This document shows, one piece after another, positions 3,125-15,484 of a DNA stretch of 22,298 nucleotides (its first letter is position 1; each line of letters starts with the position of its first letter). Under the pieces are notes generated by a model. It made no database searches. It had not been told where the DNA came from and saw only the letters and a list, made by a program, of their open reading frames with translations. The position numbers were made by a program, and so were the translations under genes. Origin of the DNA: a virus; IMG/VR virus record IMGVR_UViG_3300025806_000250, positions 1 to 22,298 of that record; one strand, 5' to 3'.

Positions 3125-3165
3125 ATATTCACATATATCGTGTCGTTGTGCAAGTGTTTGCACAA
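3125..3165 (-). promoter_or_regulatory. leftward promoter P1 with perfect operator palindrome
   Basis: On the minus strand: -35 TTGCAC (3148-3153), 17-base spacer starting AACGACACGATA, -10 GAATAT (3125-3130). The -35 lies inside a perfect palindrome TTGTGCAA-GTGT-TTGCACAA (3146-3165), so a repressor bound there would cover the -35. The transcript would run into the 193-residue gene. Confidence 0.75.
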
Positions 3166-5235: not shown

Positions 5236-5679
5236 CTAATCCTTTCGGGGGTCGTCCCCCATTGAGTAACGTAGATACCACACCGCCTTCGCCTTATCCT
5301 GGTTGGGTTCGTTGTGGGCCTTTTTGCCGCATCTCCATTGGTACTTGAATGATGCAATCTCACTGTACTGCTGCACCCGCTCCAGACCAAAGGCTGCAAC
5401 CATGGCGTCAATACATTCAATCTCAGAGTCAGCGTAATGGCTTGGTGAGTTCACCATGTCATGAGCCTGGCACATTTGATCGTCAACTGGGTCAACGGTT
5501 ACGGAGATCTGTGTGAGCTTTTTATAGCTGCTTAGCCTGACCTTTTGACCATCCATTGCCCTTGACCAAACACCAGGGCTAACACCCAGGCGCTCGGACA
5601 TTGCAACATTGGTCAGCCCAAGAGCACGCTGCATAACCAGCAGGTTGTTCGCTTCGTCTGCACTTAATTGAACCTTCAT
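5236..5679 (-). CDS. HTH domain fused to DUF3310
   Basis: A 147-residue protein with AGGGGG before ATG 5679. Residues about 5-58 (ANNLLVMQRALGLTNVAMSERL, then GVSPGVWSRA) read as a Cro/XRE-like helix-turn-helix. Residues about 76-140 match the DUF3310 pattern: NSPSHYADSEIECIDA, then SEIASFKYQWRCGKK and DKAKAVWYL. DUF3310 proteins are common in phage replication regions and are often linked with nucleotide metabolism or kinase genes; their activity is not settled. The HTH fusion is the odd point and makes the protein a candidate DNA-binding regulator. It sits one base before the RecE-like gene and eight bases after the SSB gene. Confidence 0.8.
   Translation of the reverse strand: MKVQLSADEANNLLVMQRALGLTNVAMSERLGVSPGVWSRAMDGQKVRLSSYKKLTQISVTVDPVDDQMCQAHDMVNSPSHYADSEIECIDAMVAAFGLERVQQYSEIASFKYQWRCGKKAHNEPNQDKAKAVWYLRYSMGDDPRKD
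5247..5260 (-). promoter_or_regulatory. GC hairpin just upstream of the RecE-like RBS
   Basis: The minus-strand RNA reads GGGGG-ACGA-CCCCC (5256-5260 with 5247-5251), ending just before the AAGGA of the RecE-like gene and lying within the end of the preceding coding sequence. No U-tract is present. Placement mirrors the hairpin at 2482-2497. Confidence 0.45.
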
Positions 5680-6529: not shown

Positions 6530-8692
6530 ATGTCATTTCTAGTCAGTGCAACTAATCCAAAAGATAAATCTAGGCCCATAACGGGCAACTTCAGGCAAGA
6601 GTTTGAGGCGTTCCTGGCAGAAAATGGCTTGCAGCTGGACCATAAGAAGGGTCTGCTGGTCGATGGAAGTATAGGTAGAGCTTACATGGATGTCGATGGT
6701 AAGCATAAGCTCACTGGCTGGTATCAATTCTGGGCAGATCAATCAATCCCCTTTGGCCGCTGCGGTGACTACCGAGTAGACAGTGCCAACCCAACTGCAA
6801 CCTGGAAGCCGAACAACAGCGGCAACTACAAGATGACTGATGAGCAGCGAGAAGAGATTAAGCTGCTGCAGGATGAAGCCCAGGCAAAGAAGGAAGAGCG
6901 TAACAACAGAGCTGCCAAGCGCAGCCAGAATATTTGGGAGGCTGCTGCAGCGTGTACTGAGCACCCATACCTAACCAAGAAGAACGTGCCCAGCTTTGGG
7001 CTCAAGCAGCATAATGATGGCCGGCTGATGATTCCGCTTTTGGACTCTGCCCTGGTCATTGTTGGTCTTCAGTATATTGACGATGGTGGGGGGAAGATGT
7101 TCCTCACTGGTTCCAAGAAGAAGGCCAGCTTCTTCATCCTGGGCCAGGAGCTGCTCAAGGATGCCCACACTATCAACTACTGTGAGGGTTATGCCACTGC
7201 AGCTAGTTACTACCAGGATATGAACCAGCCGGTGGTGGTGAGCTTTGATGCTTACAATCTGGCTCCGGTAGCTGAGGTGATATTCAAGCACTTCGGTGAG
7301 GCCAAGCATGTATTCATCGCGGATTTCGACGACAACAGCACGGGTGAGAAGGAAGCAATCAAAGCTGCCCAGGCTGTTAAATCTGGGGGTGGCCAGGCTG
7401 AGGTATTCATGCCGCAGTCCAAGGGTGATTACAACGATCATAAAGAGCTGCTGCAGGGTGAGGTTATGCCGGCGCTGCAGGAGGTTTCGATTCCCCAGGA
7501 GTATGACTTTGAGCGCAACAGCAATGGGCGCTTCTTGCATACCAAAGACAATCACCGTGGCGTCCTGGTTACTAATCAGATCCAGGTGGACTACAACGTC
7601 ATAAAGAAAGCCATAGAGATTGAGATCCCTCACCAGAAGTTTATCGCTGACCTGAAGGATGATGCGGCGATCATTGAGATCGAGGATCGGTGTATCAAGA
7701 TGGGCATCCCTCATGAAAGGGTACGGTTTAATCTGAAGCTGCTGGCCAGGGAGTACAATCCGGTCAAGGAGTGGATGGAGAGTGTGCCCTGGGATGGCAA
7801 GACCAGGCTGCAGATGTTCCTGGACACTATCAAGAGTCCAAACGAGCCGCTCAAAGAGATGCTGATGAAGAAGTGGCTTCTAGGTTGTGTGGCTGCAGCA
7901 TGCGAGGAGGGCGGAGCTAATTTGGAAGGTATTTTGGTATTCCAGGGAGCCCAGGCAGTCGGAAAGACGCAGTGGTTTGGTAGCCTGGCACCGAACAAAG
8001 AGTGGCTGCTGGAAGGCGCTACCCTCAATCCCCAGGACAAAGACAGTGTGAAGCAGTGTGTTAGCCATTGGATCTGTGAGCTCGGAGAGCTGGGATCCAC
8101 CTTTAAGCGTGCAGATATTGACCAGCTCAAGGCGTTCCTAACCAAGCGCAGTGATGAGCTGCGGCTACCGTATGACCGAGCGTTTAGCAACTATCAGCGG
8201 CGTACTGCATTCTATGCCAGTGTGAATGAGAAGGAATTCCTTATTGATACCAGCGGCAACAGACGGTTCTGGGTTGTACCGGTGACGGCCATAGACTGGC
8301 GCCATGGTCTGAACATGCAGCAAGTGTGGGCTGAGATCAAGGAGACGATGTATGCCAAGGGAGATCGTAACTGGTTCCTCACAAGTGAAGAGCGGGTGAT
8401 GCTGCAGGATAGCAATGAGTTCTTTAGAACCCAGAGCGCGGTTGAGGACCTGCTGTTACAATACATTAAGTTTGATAGCGCAGACAAGAAGCCGGTCCAG
8501 ATGACGCACCTACTCAGAGACATGGGGATCAACAACCCCAGGATGGCGGACTTCAAGGATGCAGCACGGGTGCTCGCTGATCGCGGTGTTGAACCAAGAT
8601 ATAGCAATGGTAAGAAGATATATGACCTGGATTATGACGCGGTAATCACCGCAGATGACTCCTTCCCGCCGGCCCCAAAGTGGGATAACTGA
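6530..8692 (+). CDS. Toprim primase fused to VirE/SF3-type helicase
   Basis: A 720-residue replication protein. The start is ATG 6530 with GGAGG upstream; the frame is open earlier but that region is the opposite gene and the promoters. The N-terminal ~170 residues include a charged helix (EEIKLLQDEAQAKKEERNN). A Toprim region follows (about 210-300), with E219 in YCEGYATA and the acidic DFDD at 265-268, then KGDYNDH. The C-terminal half is a virulence-associated E (PF05272-like) helicase/ATPase with Walker A GAQAVGKT (473-480), a WICELGEL block, KRSDELRLPYDR and SGNRRFWVVPV. The protein probably primes and unwinds phage DNA. A zinc-binding domain is not evident. It stands alone, divergent from the SSB operon and followed by the AT-rich intergenic stretch. 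Confidence 0.9.
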   Translation: MSFLVSATNPKDKSRPITGNFRQEFEAFLAENGLQLDHKKGLLVDGSIGRAYMDVDGKHKLTGWYQFWADQSIPFGRCGDYRVDSANPTATWKPNNSGNYKMTDEQREEIKLLQDEAQAKKEERNNRAAKRSQNIWEAAAACTEHPYLTKKNVPSFGLKQHNDGRLMIPLLDSALVIVGLQYIDDGGGKMFLTGSKKKASFFILGQELLKDAHTINYCEGYATAASYYQDMNQPVVVSFDAYNLAPVAEVIFKHFGEAKHVFIADFDDNSTGEKEAIKAAQAVKSGGGQAEVFMPQSKGDYNDHKELLQGEVMPALQEVSIPQEYDFERNSNGRFLHTKDNHRGVLVTNQIQVDYNVIKKAIEIEIPHQKFIADLKDDAAIIEIEDRCIKMGIPHERVRFNLKLLAREYNPVKEWMESVPWDGKTRLQMFLDTIKSPNEPLKEMLMKKWLLGCVAAACEEGGANLEGILVFQGAQAVGKTQWFGSLAPNKEWLLEGATLNPQDKDSVKQCVSHWICELGELGSTFKRADIDQLKAFLTKRSDELRLPYDRAFSNYQRRTAFYASVNEKEFLIDTSGNRRFWVVPVTAIDWRHGLNMQQVWAEIKETMYAKGDRNWFLTSEERVMLQDSNEFFRTQSAVEDLLLQYIKFDSADKKPVQMTHLLRDMGINNPRMADFKDAARVLADRGVEPRYSNGKKIYDLDYDAVITADDSFPPAPKWDN

Positions 8693-8998
8693 CAGGTAGG
8701 GGTAGGGTGGGAAGGTAGGCATTTGATTGATATCATGTCGATGTATAAAGTTGGTATAAGTGGACACGATAATGTATAGAAGTTTGCACATTGAAGGTAG
8801 CTATACACTGTACACTGTTAAGGCATGAGCTAAGTCATTGATATGTGGGGTCTTTTTATATAGGTAGGGTAGGGTATAGTCTTTTAGGTAAGGTAGTTTT
8901 ATATAAGTATAAAGTAGAGTTATTTATAGTTTATATAGTGTTATATAGCCTTACTGTGAGACACCTACTATACCCTACACTGTACACTGGAGAATGAT
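8693..8998 (+). other. AT-rich, C-poor intergenic stretch, candidate origin
   Basis: About 306 bases without a gene. It opens with a G-run cluster (8695-8719) and contains a telomere-like GGTAGGGTAGGG (8863-8874). It then runs into very AT-rich DNA: 8881-8940 has 12 G and a single C. A 14-base direct repeat TACACTGTACACTG occurs at both sides. A GACACGATA element (8763-8771) and a TTTGCACA half operator (8783-8790) recall the regulon promoters. The position right behind the primase-helicase would suit a replication origin or a packaging signal ahead of the terminase gene; both are inference. Confidence 0.45.
8804..8989 (+). repeat. 14-base direct repeat pair TACACTGTACACTG
   Basis: Identical copies at 8804-8817 and 8976-8989, start to start 172 bases. 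Each contains CACTG twice (CACTGTACACTG), so each is itself a tandem of a short unit. They flank the AT-rich run and the second copy adjoins the ribosome site of the 58-residue gene, so they could be iterons or binding sites. Confidence 0.7.
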
Positions 8999-9175
8999 AT
9001 GGAAGAGTTTATTTATGAAGAAGAACAGGACTACCTGGATAATTACAGGCGGTGGCGGGAGATGAACAACGCAGAAAGAAATGCGTTTGGTGAGAGGCCG
9101 ATGGGCGAGGGTGAGGCCGAACGGATGTTCGCAAAAATGGTGGGGGATCTATGGCTGAAGAAGAAAAGAAAGTAG
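8999..9175 (+). CDS. hypothetical acidic/basic protein, 58 aa
   Basis: A short frame from ATG 8999 with GGAGA five bases upstream; another ATG just before it is out of frame. The product is charged and helical: acidic start (MEEFIYEEEQDYLDNYRRW), a Met/Arg/Glu-rich middle and a basic end (LWLKKKRK). It overlaps the terminase small subunit by 25 bases, with the terminase ribosome site inside its last codons, so the two are probably coupled. It is not recognised; a role in packaging initiation is only suggested by position. Confidence 0.6.
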   Translation: MEEFIYEEEQDYLDNYRRWREMNNAERNAFGERPMGEGEAERMFAKMVGDLWLKKKRK

Positions 9176-9678
9176 GCAGACCTAGGAAAGAAAAGCCCAA
9201 GCTCACCAATGCGCCCATTCAATTCGTCGCAGACGAGGAGCTGGGCATAACAGATATGCAAGCAGGGTTCGTCTGGCACTACACCGAAGGCGCATGCGGA
9301 CAGACTGAGGCAGCTCGAAGAGCAGGCTTCAGCTTCCCATCCAATGCTGCATCGAAGATGTTGAACGGTAGAGATCATCCGAAGGTAACAAAGGCAATAC
9401 GGATTGCCCAGGAAGAGCTGCGAGAGAAGTATGCAATCACGCCAGAGAAGACCGGTGCAATGCTATGGAACATAGCCGAGACTTCATTCGAGCAGGGTGC
9501 ATACAATGCTGCAGTGAGTGCAGTGAAGGAGCTCAACAGCCTAGCTGGACTGTCAATACAACGCAGCCAGAACCTTAACATCAATGCCAACCTGGACAAG
9601 ATGACCAAGGAGGATATCAAGGAGCGCTTGAACGACTTATTAGGTATCAAAAGTACCTTCGATGACAAAGATTTATAG
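9151..9678 (+). CDS. terS: terminase small subunit
   Basis: A 175-residue protein fitting the Terminase_2 (PF03592-like) pattern. A basic, Lys/Arg-rich N-terminus leads into a helix-turn-helix: ITDMQAGFVWHYTEG, QTEAARRAGFS and a partially conserved ASKMLNGRDHPKV. Then come helices with AITPEKTGAMLWNIAE and AVSAVKELNSLAGL that resemble the central oligomerisation domain. The C-terminus (MTKEDIKERLNDLLGI) may contact the large subunit. Small terminases recognise the packaging site and recruit the large subunit; no large subunit is visible, and the following 520 bases are non-coding, so the large subunit is elsewhere. GGGGG precedes the ATG at a suitable distance. Confidence 0.8.
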   Translation: MAEEEKKVGRPRKEKPKLTNAPIQFVADEELGITDMQAGFVWHYTEGACGQTEAARRAGFSFPSNAASKMLNGRDHPKVTKAIRIAQEELREKYAITPEKTGAMLWNIAETSFEQGAYNAAVSAVKELNSLAGLSIQRSQNLNINANLDKMTKEDIKERLNDLLGIKSTFDDKDL

Positions 9679-10025
9679 CGCGTAGCGCAAAGCAAACGGT
9701 GGGCGTAGGATGGTTGTATATAACCAAGAAAGGGGCGGCGCCCGCCCAGAGCCCAGGATTATAAAAAAAAGGCATAAAAAAGGGAATTCCCATAACTATC
9801 AGTGATGTAGGGCTGGTTTCCCTGGGGATTGAACACCCTGGTATGCGTCCCCTGTGAGCACGGGGGTCACAAACGGGGCAGATTGGGCCTGATTTGCTGG
9901 GATATGGGCTACCAGGGCAGCATTTTATTGGACCCCTATGGACCTGGGAATTAGAATCGAACATTGCTTGATTTTTTTGGGGGGCACCCCCCTAAATGCG
10001 GCGGCGGCCAGCGGGATAGGTTTAC

Positions 10026-10054
10026 TTGAGTTTTACACATTGAGTAACTAAAAT
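10026..10054 (+). promoter_or_regulatory. candidate rightward promoter for the 10.2-12.9 kb operon
   Basis: -35 TTGAGT (10026-10031), 17-base spacer, -10 TAAAAT (10049-10054). It lies upstream of the operator at 10091, which would sit in the transcribed leader. Strength is modest. Confidence 0.4.
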
Positions 10055-10090
10055 TCTGCAAGGGATAAACTCTTTCCCATCCCAGGTTTC

Positions 10091-10110
10091 ATGTGCAAAA
10101 GTTTGCACAC
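10091..10110. promoter_or_regulatory. operator palindrome of the regulon
   Basis: ATGTGCAA-AAGT-TTGCACAC: seven-base half-sites TGTGCAA and TTGCACA with the same four-base spacing as the perfect site at 3146-3165. It stands about 90 bases before the resolvase-like gene and downstream of the promoter-like pair, where a bound repressor could block elongation. Confidence 0.65.
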
Positions 10111-10198
10111 AATATGATCCAGGGGGGTAAACGCCAGGTACGTTTGGACTGCCTGGGGGTGAAAATTTTTTTCAATTTTTTAAATAAAAGGAAATGAC

Positions 10199-11517: not shown

Positions 11518-11622
11518 ATGGACGATTGGAAAGATCCTGATACCTGGAAAGGTCTGGCGCTTGCGCTAGTTGCCTTTGTCATTGTCCTGTGGGCAGTATT
11601 TTCTGGAGAAAGGCTCTCGTGA
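11518..11622 (+). CDS. single-span membrane miniprotein, 34 aa
   Basis: A short frame from ATG 11518. The peptide starts with an acidic/aromatic face (MDDWKDPDTWK) and then one hydrophobic span (GLALALVAFVIVLWAVFSG) ending in a basic tail (ERLS). The stop overlaps the GTG start of the next gene (GTGA), and the ribosome site GGAGAAAGG of the next gene is inside it. A pinholin-like or ejection-accessory role is possible, but position and topology are the only evidence. Confidence 0.55.
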   Translation: MDDWKDPDTWKGLALALVAFVIVLWAVFSGERLS

Positions 11623-12893
11623 ATAGGGATGATATTGACATATTTGGCTACAACCTGGGTGGCAGCGTCAGCGAAATGATGCGTAATCCTAAGTTGGAGC
11701 GTGATCCAATTACTCTTCCTACTGGCCCTCAAGTGGCTAATTTTTTATCGAACCTTGCTCCTGGTGCTGCGCTTCTTGATTCTACTGGCAATATGCCTGG
11801 CATGGTAGATCGTGATGCTGGGTTCACCGATATATTTGATGCTGAGAACAATCCTTCTATCCTGGAGAATATTCGCCAGGGCAACATCCTAGATCCTGCG
11901 CTGCAGGCGTTAGGCGTCCTGGGTGATGCCACATATGCGATTCCGCCGCTCGGAGCTACACTGGGGACCGCGTTGAAGGCGCCAGGGGCACTTAGAAAAG
12001 CCATGAAGCTGACCGGTGGAATTGATAATCTGCCCCAGGATGTTGCCAGGGTTGGTGATGGCGTTGAGGCTATTGACTCAGCCAGGTTGATTGCAGCGAT
12101 TGAGCAGGGCTCCCTGGTAGATGGTCCGATTAGAACCACCCCCGTATTCCAGGAACTAGGCATTGAGCGAGTGCGTGAGATTGAGGCTGCGCTTAAACGG
12201 CAGCAGGGCGATCTTAATTCGGTTGAAGCCATGGTCCAGCGAGCTAATACAGTAAATCCCTCCTTCCAGGCTAACATTGATTCAGTGGCTAAGTCAGTTG
12301 GTGGCAAGAAGGCTGATAAGTTTATCAACCTAAAAGATGGCAGCCAGTTTGATGTTGAGGTCAAGACGCCTGGCAGCATAGCCACCAAGGTTGAGCGCAA
12401 GGGCCTGAAGCCTGCAGACTTTACTGATGGCGTAAGAACAACGATCTACATAGATACTGCAGACCAGGCGGAAGAGGCTGTTAATCAGATTGGCCAGATG
12501 TACACGACTATTGACCGAGGTTGGCAGCGCATACCTGAGTCTGGTTACTTTGACCGCAAGATGAACGTCCTGGTTGATGATCCGGCTACCGGTAAGAAGA
12601 TTGTTGCCGAGATCCAGATTAAGACGCCTGAAATGTTTGATGCTGGGGAGCAGGGAGCTCACCGCTGGTATGATTACTCCAGGAAGTTGGAGGGAAGGTA
12701 TAACCATGAAATACCTGGCACTAAGTTGAAGCTATACAATAAGGCGCTTGCTGAGCAGAGGCGCCTCTTTGGTGCTGCCTTTGATGCAGCGGATCCTGCT
12801 ATTTTAGAGCAGCTTGTTGATAAGTTTATGCGAGGGGGAGCTGTGGTAGCTGGTCCCCAATCTTTCCGTATTTCATTTCAAAACTGGGCTTAG
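11619..12893 (+). CDS. virion-type protein with C-terminal RelA/SpoT synthetase-like domain
   Basis: A 424-residue protein. I chose GTG 11619 (GTGA overlap, GGAGAAAGG upstream) over the earlier in-frame ATG at 11589. Residues ~1-150 are Gly/Ala-rich with hydrophobic segments (NFLSNLAPGAALLD; ALQALGVLGDATYAIPPLG), like phage ejection or polyvalent proteins. Residues ~200-365 match the RelA/SpoT nucleotidyltransferase pattern: VKTPGSIATKVERK (K249, S253, K257), D270-GV-R273 followed by TTIYID, GYFDRKMNVLV, and the EIQIKT block (E331, Q333) with GAHRWYDY (H348, Y351). The domain transfers pyrophosphate from ATP to GTP/GDP, or to tRNA in toxic variants. Activity here is inferred. The HD hydrolase gene at 13061 lies convergently 170 bases away. 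Confidence 0.75.
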   Translation: MNRDDIDIFGYNLGGSVSEMMRNPKLERDPITLPTGPQVANFLSNLAPGAALLDSTGNMPGMVDRDAGFTDIFDAENNPSILENIRQGNILDPALQALGVLGDATYAIPPLGATLGTALKAPGALRKAMKLTGGIDNLPQDVARVGDGVEAIDSARLIAAIEQGSLVDGPIRTTPVFQELGIERVREIEAALKRQQGDLNSVEAMVQRANTVNPSFQANIDSVAKSVGGKKADKFINLKDGSQFDVEVKTPGSIATKVERKGLKPADFTDGVRTTIYIDTADQAEEAVNQIGQMYTTIDRGWQRIPESGYFDRKMNVLVDDPATGKKIVAEIQIKTPEMFDAGEQGAHRWYDYSRKLEGRYNHEIPGTKLKLYNKALAEQRRLFGAAFDAADPAILEQLVDKFMRGGAVVAGPQSFRISFQNWA

Positions 12894-13060: not shown

Positions 13061-13501
13061 TTACTCTCCCGCCATTGCCAACGCAGCTGCGTACTTGGCT
13101 GTTAATCTAACTCTATCCTCTGGATTGGGTATATTGTGCAACCCACCGTAGTTATTTTGCAAGTCACAAACCTTAACAGCTTTGGCTATCGGATTGGCAA
13201 AACACCTGGGGATATATTCTTCCAAGTAATTCTCACTCTCCGCCTTGGTAACCGCTCTGACCGCAGCCTCAATCTCTGGTCCGAAGATCTCGCCGCAGCC
13301 GATGAAGTCTTCTTCAGTGTTCCAGGGGTTTTCGTAAGCGTCATGTAACAACCCAACTATAGCATGGGCCTCTCCATATTCCTCCATCATGGGCCTGGCA
13401 ACTGCCATCGCGTGGAACATGATGGGCAAACCGTTCTTGTCGAACAAGCCCTCATACTCAACGGCGGCAACCTCTAAAGCCTTTTGAAACCCAGCAACCA
13501 C
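13061..13501 (-). CDS. HD-domain (p)ppGpp hydrolase-like protein (MESH1/SpoT-HD type)
   Basis: A 146-residue single HD domain, the size of small alarmone hydrolases. Motifs of the SpoT hydrolase fold are visible in order: FHAMAVA (H30), the HD pair in LLHDAYEN (H53, D54, E57), FGPEIEAAVRAVTK, YLEEYIPRCFANPIA and VKVCDLQNN (D113, N116). The usual HDxxED reads HDAYEN, with the second acidic residue replaced by Asn. This family removes the 3' pyrophosphate from (p)ppGpp using Mn2+; some act on NADPH or on pyrophosphorylated tRNA. It has its own promoter (13529-13557) from the shared regulon and heads a two-gene unit with the 77-residue gene. The opposite-strand neighbour carries the synthetase-like domain. 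Confidence 0.85.
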   Translation of the reverse strand: MVAGFQKALEVAAVEYEGLFDKNGLPIMFHAMAVARPMMEEYGEAHAIVGLLHDAYENPWNTEEDFIGCGEIFGPEIEAAVRAVTKAESENYLEEYIPRCFANPIAKAVKVCDLQNNYGGLHNIPNPEDRVRLTAKYAAALAMAGE

Positions 13502-14429: not shown

Positions 14430-14930
14430 CTAGAAGTGTGGGTTTCGGCAGTCATGGTGCCCCTTGGTCATGCTCCAGGTTCCTCCTGGTCTCGCCCAGG
14501 CAGTCCCGCAAGCACGACGATAAAATGTCTCGCCAGTGCTGCTGGTGATTTTCTTGAAAGTCTTGCTGATCTGGGCTATCTCACCGCAAGGATACCAGTC
14601 ACCGTTGAAGCCGTAGCTGATTGGCTGCCCAACTTCAGGCATTTTGAAAACTCGGAAGTTTGGCTTGGGCTCACTGTAAACGCCCTGGTCTCCGCTGAAC
14701 TCAAGCAGCTCACGCTGGTCTCGCCCGTTCTGAATGATCTGATAAGTACCGCCATCCTTTTCCATGGCAGCCTTGATTAACTCGGCGTCCTGGTATTCAA
14801 AGATCTCGCTCACCTCTTTGAATCCAAACTCAACAGGGTGGTGGCCCATCCCGCATGTTGGCTCGACAGCCTGGAGCTCGTCGCGCCCTTCGTAAAAAAC
14901 AACCTCACCTTTTTCTATTCGATAATTCAT
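14430..14930 (-). CDS. conserved mobile-element protein, 166 aa
   Basis: ATG 14930 overlaps the previous stop as ATGA. The C-terminal part (VGQPISYGFNGDWYPCGE, then ISKTFKKITSSTGETFYRR, GTAWARPGGTWSMTKGHH and RNPHF) matches a domain pattern I associate with uncharacterised plasmid and phage proteins. The N-terminus (YRIEKGEVVFYEGRDELQ, TCGMGHHPV) is beta-rich. No catalytic motif was recognised. It is the second gene behind the P3 promoter. Confidence 0.7.
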   Translation of the reverse strand: MNYRIEKGEVVFYEGRDELQAVEPTCGMGHHPVEFGFKEVSEIFEYQDAELIKAAMEKDGGTYQIIQNGRDQRELLEFSGDQGVYSEPKPNFRVFKMPEVGQPISYGFNGDWYPCGEIAQISKTFKKITSSTGETFYRRACGTAWARPGGTWSMTKGHHDCRNPHF

Positions 14931-15484
14931 GCTGCTTCTCCTAGCCTTTTGGCCTTAGTTGGTCTCTTGAAAAATCCAAACTTCTCATCATCATTGCTCA
15001 CCTGGACAGTAGCGTTGAAGCTCACCTTGCAACCTTTGATGGTCTCTTCACCATACAAGCTGGCAGGCATAGTGCCGTACACTTTCCAGCCCATCTCGCT
15101 TTCAACAATCATTTTGGTGACCCAGGTGTTGTAAGCGTAGCCCTCAACTTCTTTAAGACCAACAACAGTGCCGATGATCTCCTGCTTACCTGGCTCAATC
15201 GCTGCAGCCGCTGCATGCTTTGCAGCCTTTTCAGCTTCCCACTTTGCTTGACGCTCCGCCCTGGCAGCCTCTCTTACTGCAGCCTCAGCCATGCGCTTGA
15301 CTTGGGCGACCTCACGCTTGGCCTCACTTTTGGCTCGCGCTGCAGCCCTGACCTCTGGAGAGGTTTTGTATTCCCAAAGGCCGCTTCCGCCGCACTTAAA
15401 GCAAACGCCGTTTGCAACGTGGGCGTAGTAATAGATGTGGCCGTTGGGGTCCTGACATTTTGGACACGCTTCGATATAACCCAT
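14927..15484 (-). CDS. zinc-finger protein with Ala/Arg coiled linker, 185 aa
   Basis: AAGGAGG precedes ATG 15484. The N-terminus has two knuckles, CPKC (C7, C10) and CFKC (C28, C31), a DnaJ-like zinc finger. A long Arg/Ala/Glu helical linker (about 48-95) follows, and the C-terminal domain is beta-rich (IIGTVVGLKEVEGYAYNT, WKVYGTMPASL, KGCKVSFNATVQVSNDDEKF). It resembles plasmid and phage proteins of unknown function that bind nucleic acids through such an arrangement. It leads the operon driven by P3 and has the linker style of the 2505-3086 gene. Confidence 0.75.
   Translation of the reverse strand: MGYIEACPKCQDPNGHIYYYAHVANGVCFKCGGSGLWEYKTSPEVRAAARAKSEAKREVAQVKRMAEAAVREAARAERQAKWEAEKAAKHAAAAAIEPGKQEIIGTVVGLKEVEGYAYNTWVTKMIVESEMGWKVYGTMPASLYGEETIKGCKVSFNATVQVSNDDEKFGFFKRPTKAKRLGEAA

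Follow-up and report, generated by a model that had tools for sequence, protein, structure and literature searches.

A conserved repeat array around an IHF-type site, next to the small terminase gene of mostly marine uncultured phages, as a candidate packaging-initiation site

The window analysed here, a 22.3-kb IMG/VR virus record (22,298 nucleotides), contains at 8693-8998 a noncoding region that follows the gene for a primase-helicase and precedes that for the small terminase (TerS), which raises the question of which neighbour, if either, it serves. An earlier note had taken it for a replication origin on the strength of its place behind the primase-helicase. The region is exceptional within the window in composition, skew and repeat content. 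At 36% GC it is among the lowest 0.7% of the window's 306-bp windows, and its GC skew of +0.42, extreme in the direction that the note had described, is reached by only 0.3% of sliding windows, the maximum-skew one beginning at 8841, inside the region. The 14-base direct repeat TACACTGTACACTG is present at 8804 and 8976, 172 bases from start to start as reported, and among 1000 dinucleotide shuffles one produced an exact repeat of this length. The G-run cluster GGTAGGGGTAGGGTGGGAAGGTAGG (8695-8719), GGTAGGGTAGGG (8863-8874) and the motif fragments GACACGATA (8763) and TTTGCACA (8783) likewise lie where the note had placed them, and 8881-8940 does hold 12 G and a single C, with 20 A and 27 T. 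It had overlooked the IHF-type site, the alternating orientation of the repeats and their conservation. A reading as an RNA element was dropped, as the region has no Rfam match and only a weak predicted fold (z -1.5). The features of the locus are as follows.

6533-8692, + strand: VapE/Toprim primase-helicase, upstream of the element (PF05272 VapE-like, PF13362 Toprim_3, phrog_2249)
8693-8998, no strand: the whole conserved noncoding repeat element (20-sequence alignment; 138 upstream regions, 48 non-redundant)
8695-8719, - strand: outer-left G-run cluster of degenerate reverse-orientation repeats, CAGGGTA in relatives (alignment)
8731-8771, no strand: degenerate inverted repeat, TATCATGTC (8731-8739) and GACACGATA (8763-8771) (alignment, motif scan)
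8804-8817, + strand: left repeats TACACTG TACACTG (repeat scan)
8831-8843, - strand: IHF-type site, a reverse-strand match to WATCAANNNNTTR that reads TAAGTCATTGATA on the + strand (consensus scan)
8863-8880, - strand: centre repeats GGTAGGGTAGGGTATAGT, in reverse orientation (alignment, repeat scan)
8881-8968, no strand: AT-rich segment from the centre to the right repeats (base counts)
8971-8989, + strand: right repeats TACCCTA/TACACTG/TACACTG, immediately followed by the ribosome-binding site for the open reading frame at 8999
8999-9175, + strand: 58-residue open reading frame overlapping the start of TerS, found in many, not all, relatives
9151-9678, + strand: TerS, 175 residues (phrog_51)
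9679-10198, no strand: a further conserved noncoding region, past the end of TerS and containing palindromes (comparison of relatives)

The upstream protein matches PF05272 VapE-like (E 7e-51), PF13362 Toprim_3 (E 1e-8) and the phrog_2249 DNA primase family (E 4e-84). TerS matches phrog_51, terminase small subunit, with an E of 1e-9, a family match shared by 25/25 relatives; its match to Pfam Terminase_2 is below the Pfam cut-off, and its structure prediction was poor (pLDDT 64) and gave no match in the PDB. Nearly all relatives carry an AT-hook-like stretch (GRPKKEKP/RGRPKKER) at the N-terminus of TerS, which could contact the AT-rich segment. An equally long small open reading frame also overlaps terS in the pelagiphage HTVC027P. 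PF03354 found no large terminase (TerL) among 22 contigs; TerL was recognised on reading through G002, a complete relative (51,015 bp, its ends overlapping by 145 bp at 99.3%, hence a circle of ~50.9 kb), where a protein with a Terminase_6C domain (PF17289) is encoded ~15 kb beyond TerS. It is 57-60% identical to the TerL of HTVC023P-type pelagiphages and of phage DSL-LC04. Further along the window, a 434-residue protein at 11589-12893 has a RelA/SpoT-like region (PF04607, just over cut-off) and near it, at 13061-13501, lies an HD-domain-like protein (PF13328, under cut-off); from their domains the two are a possible alarmone pair.

The earlier note had proposed a search for the repeat in relatives, and the element was found in some 150 of them in IMG/VR, members of a large group of uncultured phages that are mostly marine. 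Its unit is a short repeat, TAC(A/C)CTG, arranged in alternating orientation around an IHF-type consensus that is exact in the window. The order in the aligned relatives is conserved, running from reverse G-run repeats through a lineage-specific module, which in the window is a CGTGTC-type inverted repeat, to the left forward repeats TACACTG TACACTG, the reverse-strand IHF consensus, the centre reverse repeats AGGGTAGGGTATAGT, the AT-rich segment, the right forward repeats and the ribosome-binding site. Within the centre repeats GGGTAGGGTATAGT is invariant throughout the 20-sequence alignment. Across the 48 non-redundant elements, from which redundancy was lowered by an 8-mer overlap filter, the repeat was counted 242 times as against 21.8 +/- 4.5 in shuffles made without correction for relatedness. 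The left and right repeats are spaced 157 +/- 7 bp apart in those 25 elements whose left, centre and right repeats follow in strict order, and the segment from centre to right averages 68% AT in 25 relatives. The layout is roughly two-fold about the IHF site, with the window's outer arms ~134 and ~139 bp from the midpoint, a mirror-like symmetry that is only approximate, as an exact reverse repeat is present in the outer-left arm of just 11/25 relatives. The arms within one element share more 7-mers than do arms of different elements (3.96 vs 1.62; 0/5000 permutations as high), which base composition may partly account for. The repeat cluster is unique, occurring as a single copy in the complete 50.9-kb relative.

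In all 22.3 kb, both strands considered, the one exact match to the IHF consensus is that at 8831-8843. On the reverse strand of the 48 non-redundant elements the exact consensus was found 18 times where 0.7 would be expected, again from shuffles without a relatedness correction. Allowing up to one mismatch, 19/25 strict-order elements have the site, where shuffled intervals give ~1.5, and its distance from the left repeat is mostly 20 bp. The fit to the consensus and the conserved offset together predict a DNA-bending site at 8831-8843.

Iterons with an IHF site and an AT-rich segment are typical of the R6K, pSC101 and SaPI origins. The element, with repeated short direct repeats and an AT-rich region, has these classic parts, which describe iteron origins just as well and so count against assigning it to packaging, and an approximately two-fold layout besides. 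If it were a replication origin, the VapE-type primase-helicase, directly upstream in most relatives, would bind the repeats as iterons, IHF would bend the array and the AT-rich part would melt; this we consider a real but rather doubtful possibility. The divergence of the element follows the primase as well as it follows TerS (partial r of 0.44 with primase identity and 0.43 with TerS identity), a tie that suits an origin, speaks against packaging and led us to discard co-divergence as a test of the binding partner.

As primase-helicase, element and TerS form a contiguous block in most relatives, co-occurrence with TerS is by itself a weak argument, and the case depends on those relatives in which the primase is displaced. 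In the relatives examined that had enough sequence, the element immediately precedes the TerS unit, with the primase next to it or not. The gaps between primase and TerS span 272 to 2536 nt, and the primase is displaced from the element by up to ~2 kb in several relatives (gaps of 2536 nt in L034, 2052 in L045, 1693 in L058, 1649 in L054, 1173 in L160, 1087 in L050 and 1021 in L040). The intervening genes are methyltransferases and small accessory open reading frames, and the element is still found before TerS, as it is also in L172, L188 and L207. In L176, a short locus, methyltransferases take the place of the other genes and then primase seen in L207. L204 carries TerS and the element in full, while the VapE primase is absent both from the 2.1 kb upstream and from the whole of its 12.4 kb; upstream there is instead a homolog, judged by eye, of the window gene at 14927-15484. 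That accessory genes part the primase from the element while TerS stays adjacent, and that L204 has no primase nearby, argues against an origin. Origins need not adjoin the gene for their initiator, so the displacement weakens that reading and does no more. Of the earlier note's account, the repeat array, its cis-acting appearance and the AT-rich segment are real, while the step from a place behind the primase-helicase to an origin has lost weight. The note had also suggested the cumulative GC skew of a complete genome as a check; for G002 this could be computed, and it climbs almost throughout with small dips over leftward genes. As the skew follows the mostly one-directional genes it gives no origin signal and is uninformative on this point.

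A DNA-only pattern, GTACMCTGN38-66AGGGTAGGGTA, was scanned across 2.9 million viral contigs and matched 80 loci, 4 of which end before any TerS could lie there. Among the 76 with enough DNA, a same-strand TerS lies close downstream in 72, and the remaining 4 look like chance or an opposite-strand match. An IHF site, allowing no more than one mismatch, was present in 68 of the pattern loci not judged to be chance (the 76). The same pattern gave 16 matches in bacterial and archaeal genomes, none with the right repeats or a TerS, which look like chance, and a TerS profile search of genome contigs found no prophage or host relatives; on these two grounds such relatives were rejected. The bacterial matches bear also on a recombination site of the res or att type, for which the window encodes a candidate enzyme, a serine recombinase (PF00239, 16464-17255) that is present in relatives too. 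Sites of this type have a multi-subsite layout, which the element resembles. The gene for the recombinase lies 7 kb from the element, the element goes with TerS, the genome has no second copy of it and the bacterial matches appear fortuitous, all of which makes this explanation very improbable.

The element is located at or next to terS across the relatives, as would be expected of a pac- or cosB-like site, and we put the chance that it is a TerS-linked packaging-initiation site at about even, ahead of a replication origin. In such a site TerS oligomers would bind the short TAC(A/C)CTG repeats, and an IHF-type protein would introduce a bend between the left and the centre group of repeats, uniting the repeat arms around the TerS assembly. 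TerS would then recruit TerL, which would make the first cut in the concatemers, and headful-type packaging would proceed. The identity of the repeat-binding protein, the binding of IHF and the start of packaging at this place are what we infer.

Of the known systems, lambda cosB and the SPP1 pac site are most like the element in their workings, and a packaging-initiation site is therefore favoured. In lambda cosB (R3-I1-R2-R1) the IHF site lies between the TerS sites R3 and R2 (PMC4856287), and the element resembles it in having short repeats close to the TerS gene and an IHF site that separates groups of them (PMC4856287). Here, in contrast, the repeats on either side of the IHF site switch between forward and reverse across ~300 bp, neither the element nor its vicinity shows signs of fixed cohesive ends, and TerL is ~15 kb away. 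The direct repeats of SPP1 pac span the promoters and start of terS (PMC4737164). Like the element, its pacL-pacC-pacR arrangement has direct repeats just before terS and two arms around a central segment, and it serves headful packaging, as is proposed here (PMC4737164, PMC4856287). The repeat sequences differ, an IHF-type site is a feature of the present element, and a cut of the pacC type would be putative here. Work on SPP1 and SF6 found the box repeats to be of little importance in TerS binding (PMC4737164), which counts against the packaging reading. The iteron origins of R6K, pSC101 and SaPI share with the element short iterons, an IHF site, an AT-rich segment and a primase-helicase gene nearby, and differ in that the element stays with terS and not with the initiator gene when the two separate, and in that its repeats alternate between forward and reverse.

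The HTVC023P-type pelagiphages are alike in TerL (57-60% identity, as above) and in having TerS apart from TerL, and in both HTVC023P and phage 023Pt_psg01 a long unannotated stretch precedes terS. The TerS of HTVC027P is just ~34% identical, and the repeat array was absent upstream of terS in the four related isolates or genomes found via TerL. HTVC023P differs in having several repeats of its own, CTAGGAAA, directly before terS (by eye). Phage DSL-LC04 has, upstream of its terS unit, an inverted repeat of ~30 bp with the copies ~180 bp apart, also seen by eye; this repeat and the CTAGGAAA repeats of HTVC023P are at L169:20590-20790 and L170:11680-11780.

Contig ends are scattered, with no accumulation inside the element or past TerS, and a cos site with fixed ends was rejected for this reason. 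G002 assembles as a circle opened away from the element, which together with the spread ends is compatible with circularly permuted ends. No circular ends were found in seven other long contigs.

The link to a regulon motif drawn in the earlier note is real. A motif, TATCGTGTCGTTGTGCAA / TTTGCACA, of the CGTGTCG type recurs in intergenic regions at 3139, 3247, 13543, 15532 and 15589 and, within the element, at 8731-8771. Close relatives have there a full ATCGTGTC..GACACGAT inverted repeat; in the window's version the left arm (8731-8739) is mutated, while the right arm (8763-8771) is intact. From its kinship with the other sites the inverted repeat is probably an operator, and the motif as a whole likely represents operators or promoters of a phage regulator, for which the DUF3310 protein at 5236-5679, with an HTH-like start, is a candidate. 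The whole element might be the promoter or operator of the terS unit, its repeats binding TerS or another regulator of terS with no part in packaging or replication. The gene that it immediately precedes has a ribosome-binding site, it holds half-sites of the motif from other intergenic promoter regions, and in SPP1 there is overlap between pac and the terS promoters (PMC4737164). No sigma-70-like promoter was found in 8693-8998 at the scan threshold, ~300 bp with a fixed left-right spacing of 157 +/- 7 bp is large for an operator, and the repeat cluster is found nowhere else, and we think a purely regulatory role improbable.

In the relatives checked, the second noncoding region (9679-10198, ~520 bp) lies between TerS and a RusA-like/PDDEXK gene. 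It contains the near-palindromes CCCCTGTGAGCACGGGGG, GGGGGGCACCCCCC and TGTGCAAAAGTTTGCACA and one hairpin, weakly covarying. In 35 relatives the DNA behind TerS has 10 IHF matches on the + strand and 4 on the - strand as against ~0.5-0.6 expected for each (14 vs ~1.1), mostly 106-132 nt past the TerS stop, and the window's own copy of the region has no exact match. It is conceivable, if unlikely, that the locus is a packaging site of a new layout, in which the roughly two-fold symmetric reverse-forward-IHF-reverse-forward repeats before terS and the IHF-bearing palindromic region behind it act together, possibly as a joint origin and pac site.

Few uncultured marine phages have had their packaging or origin sites located from sequence. 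The combination of repeat, IHF-type site and fixed spacing is a DNA signature that finds these phages, with TerS accompanying 72/76 of its matches that extend far enough downstream, and the motif could help to detect satellites that exploit the packaging of such phages.
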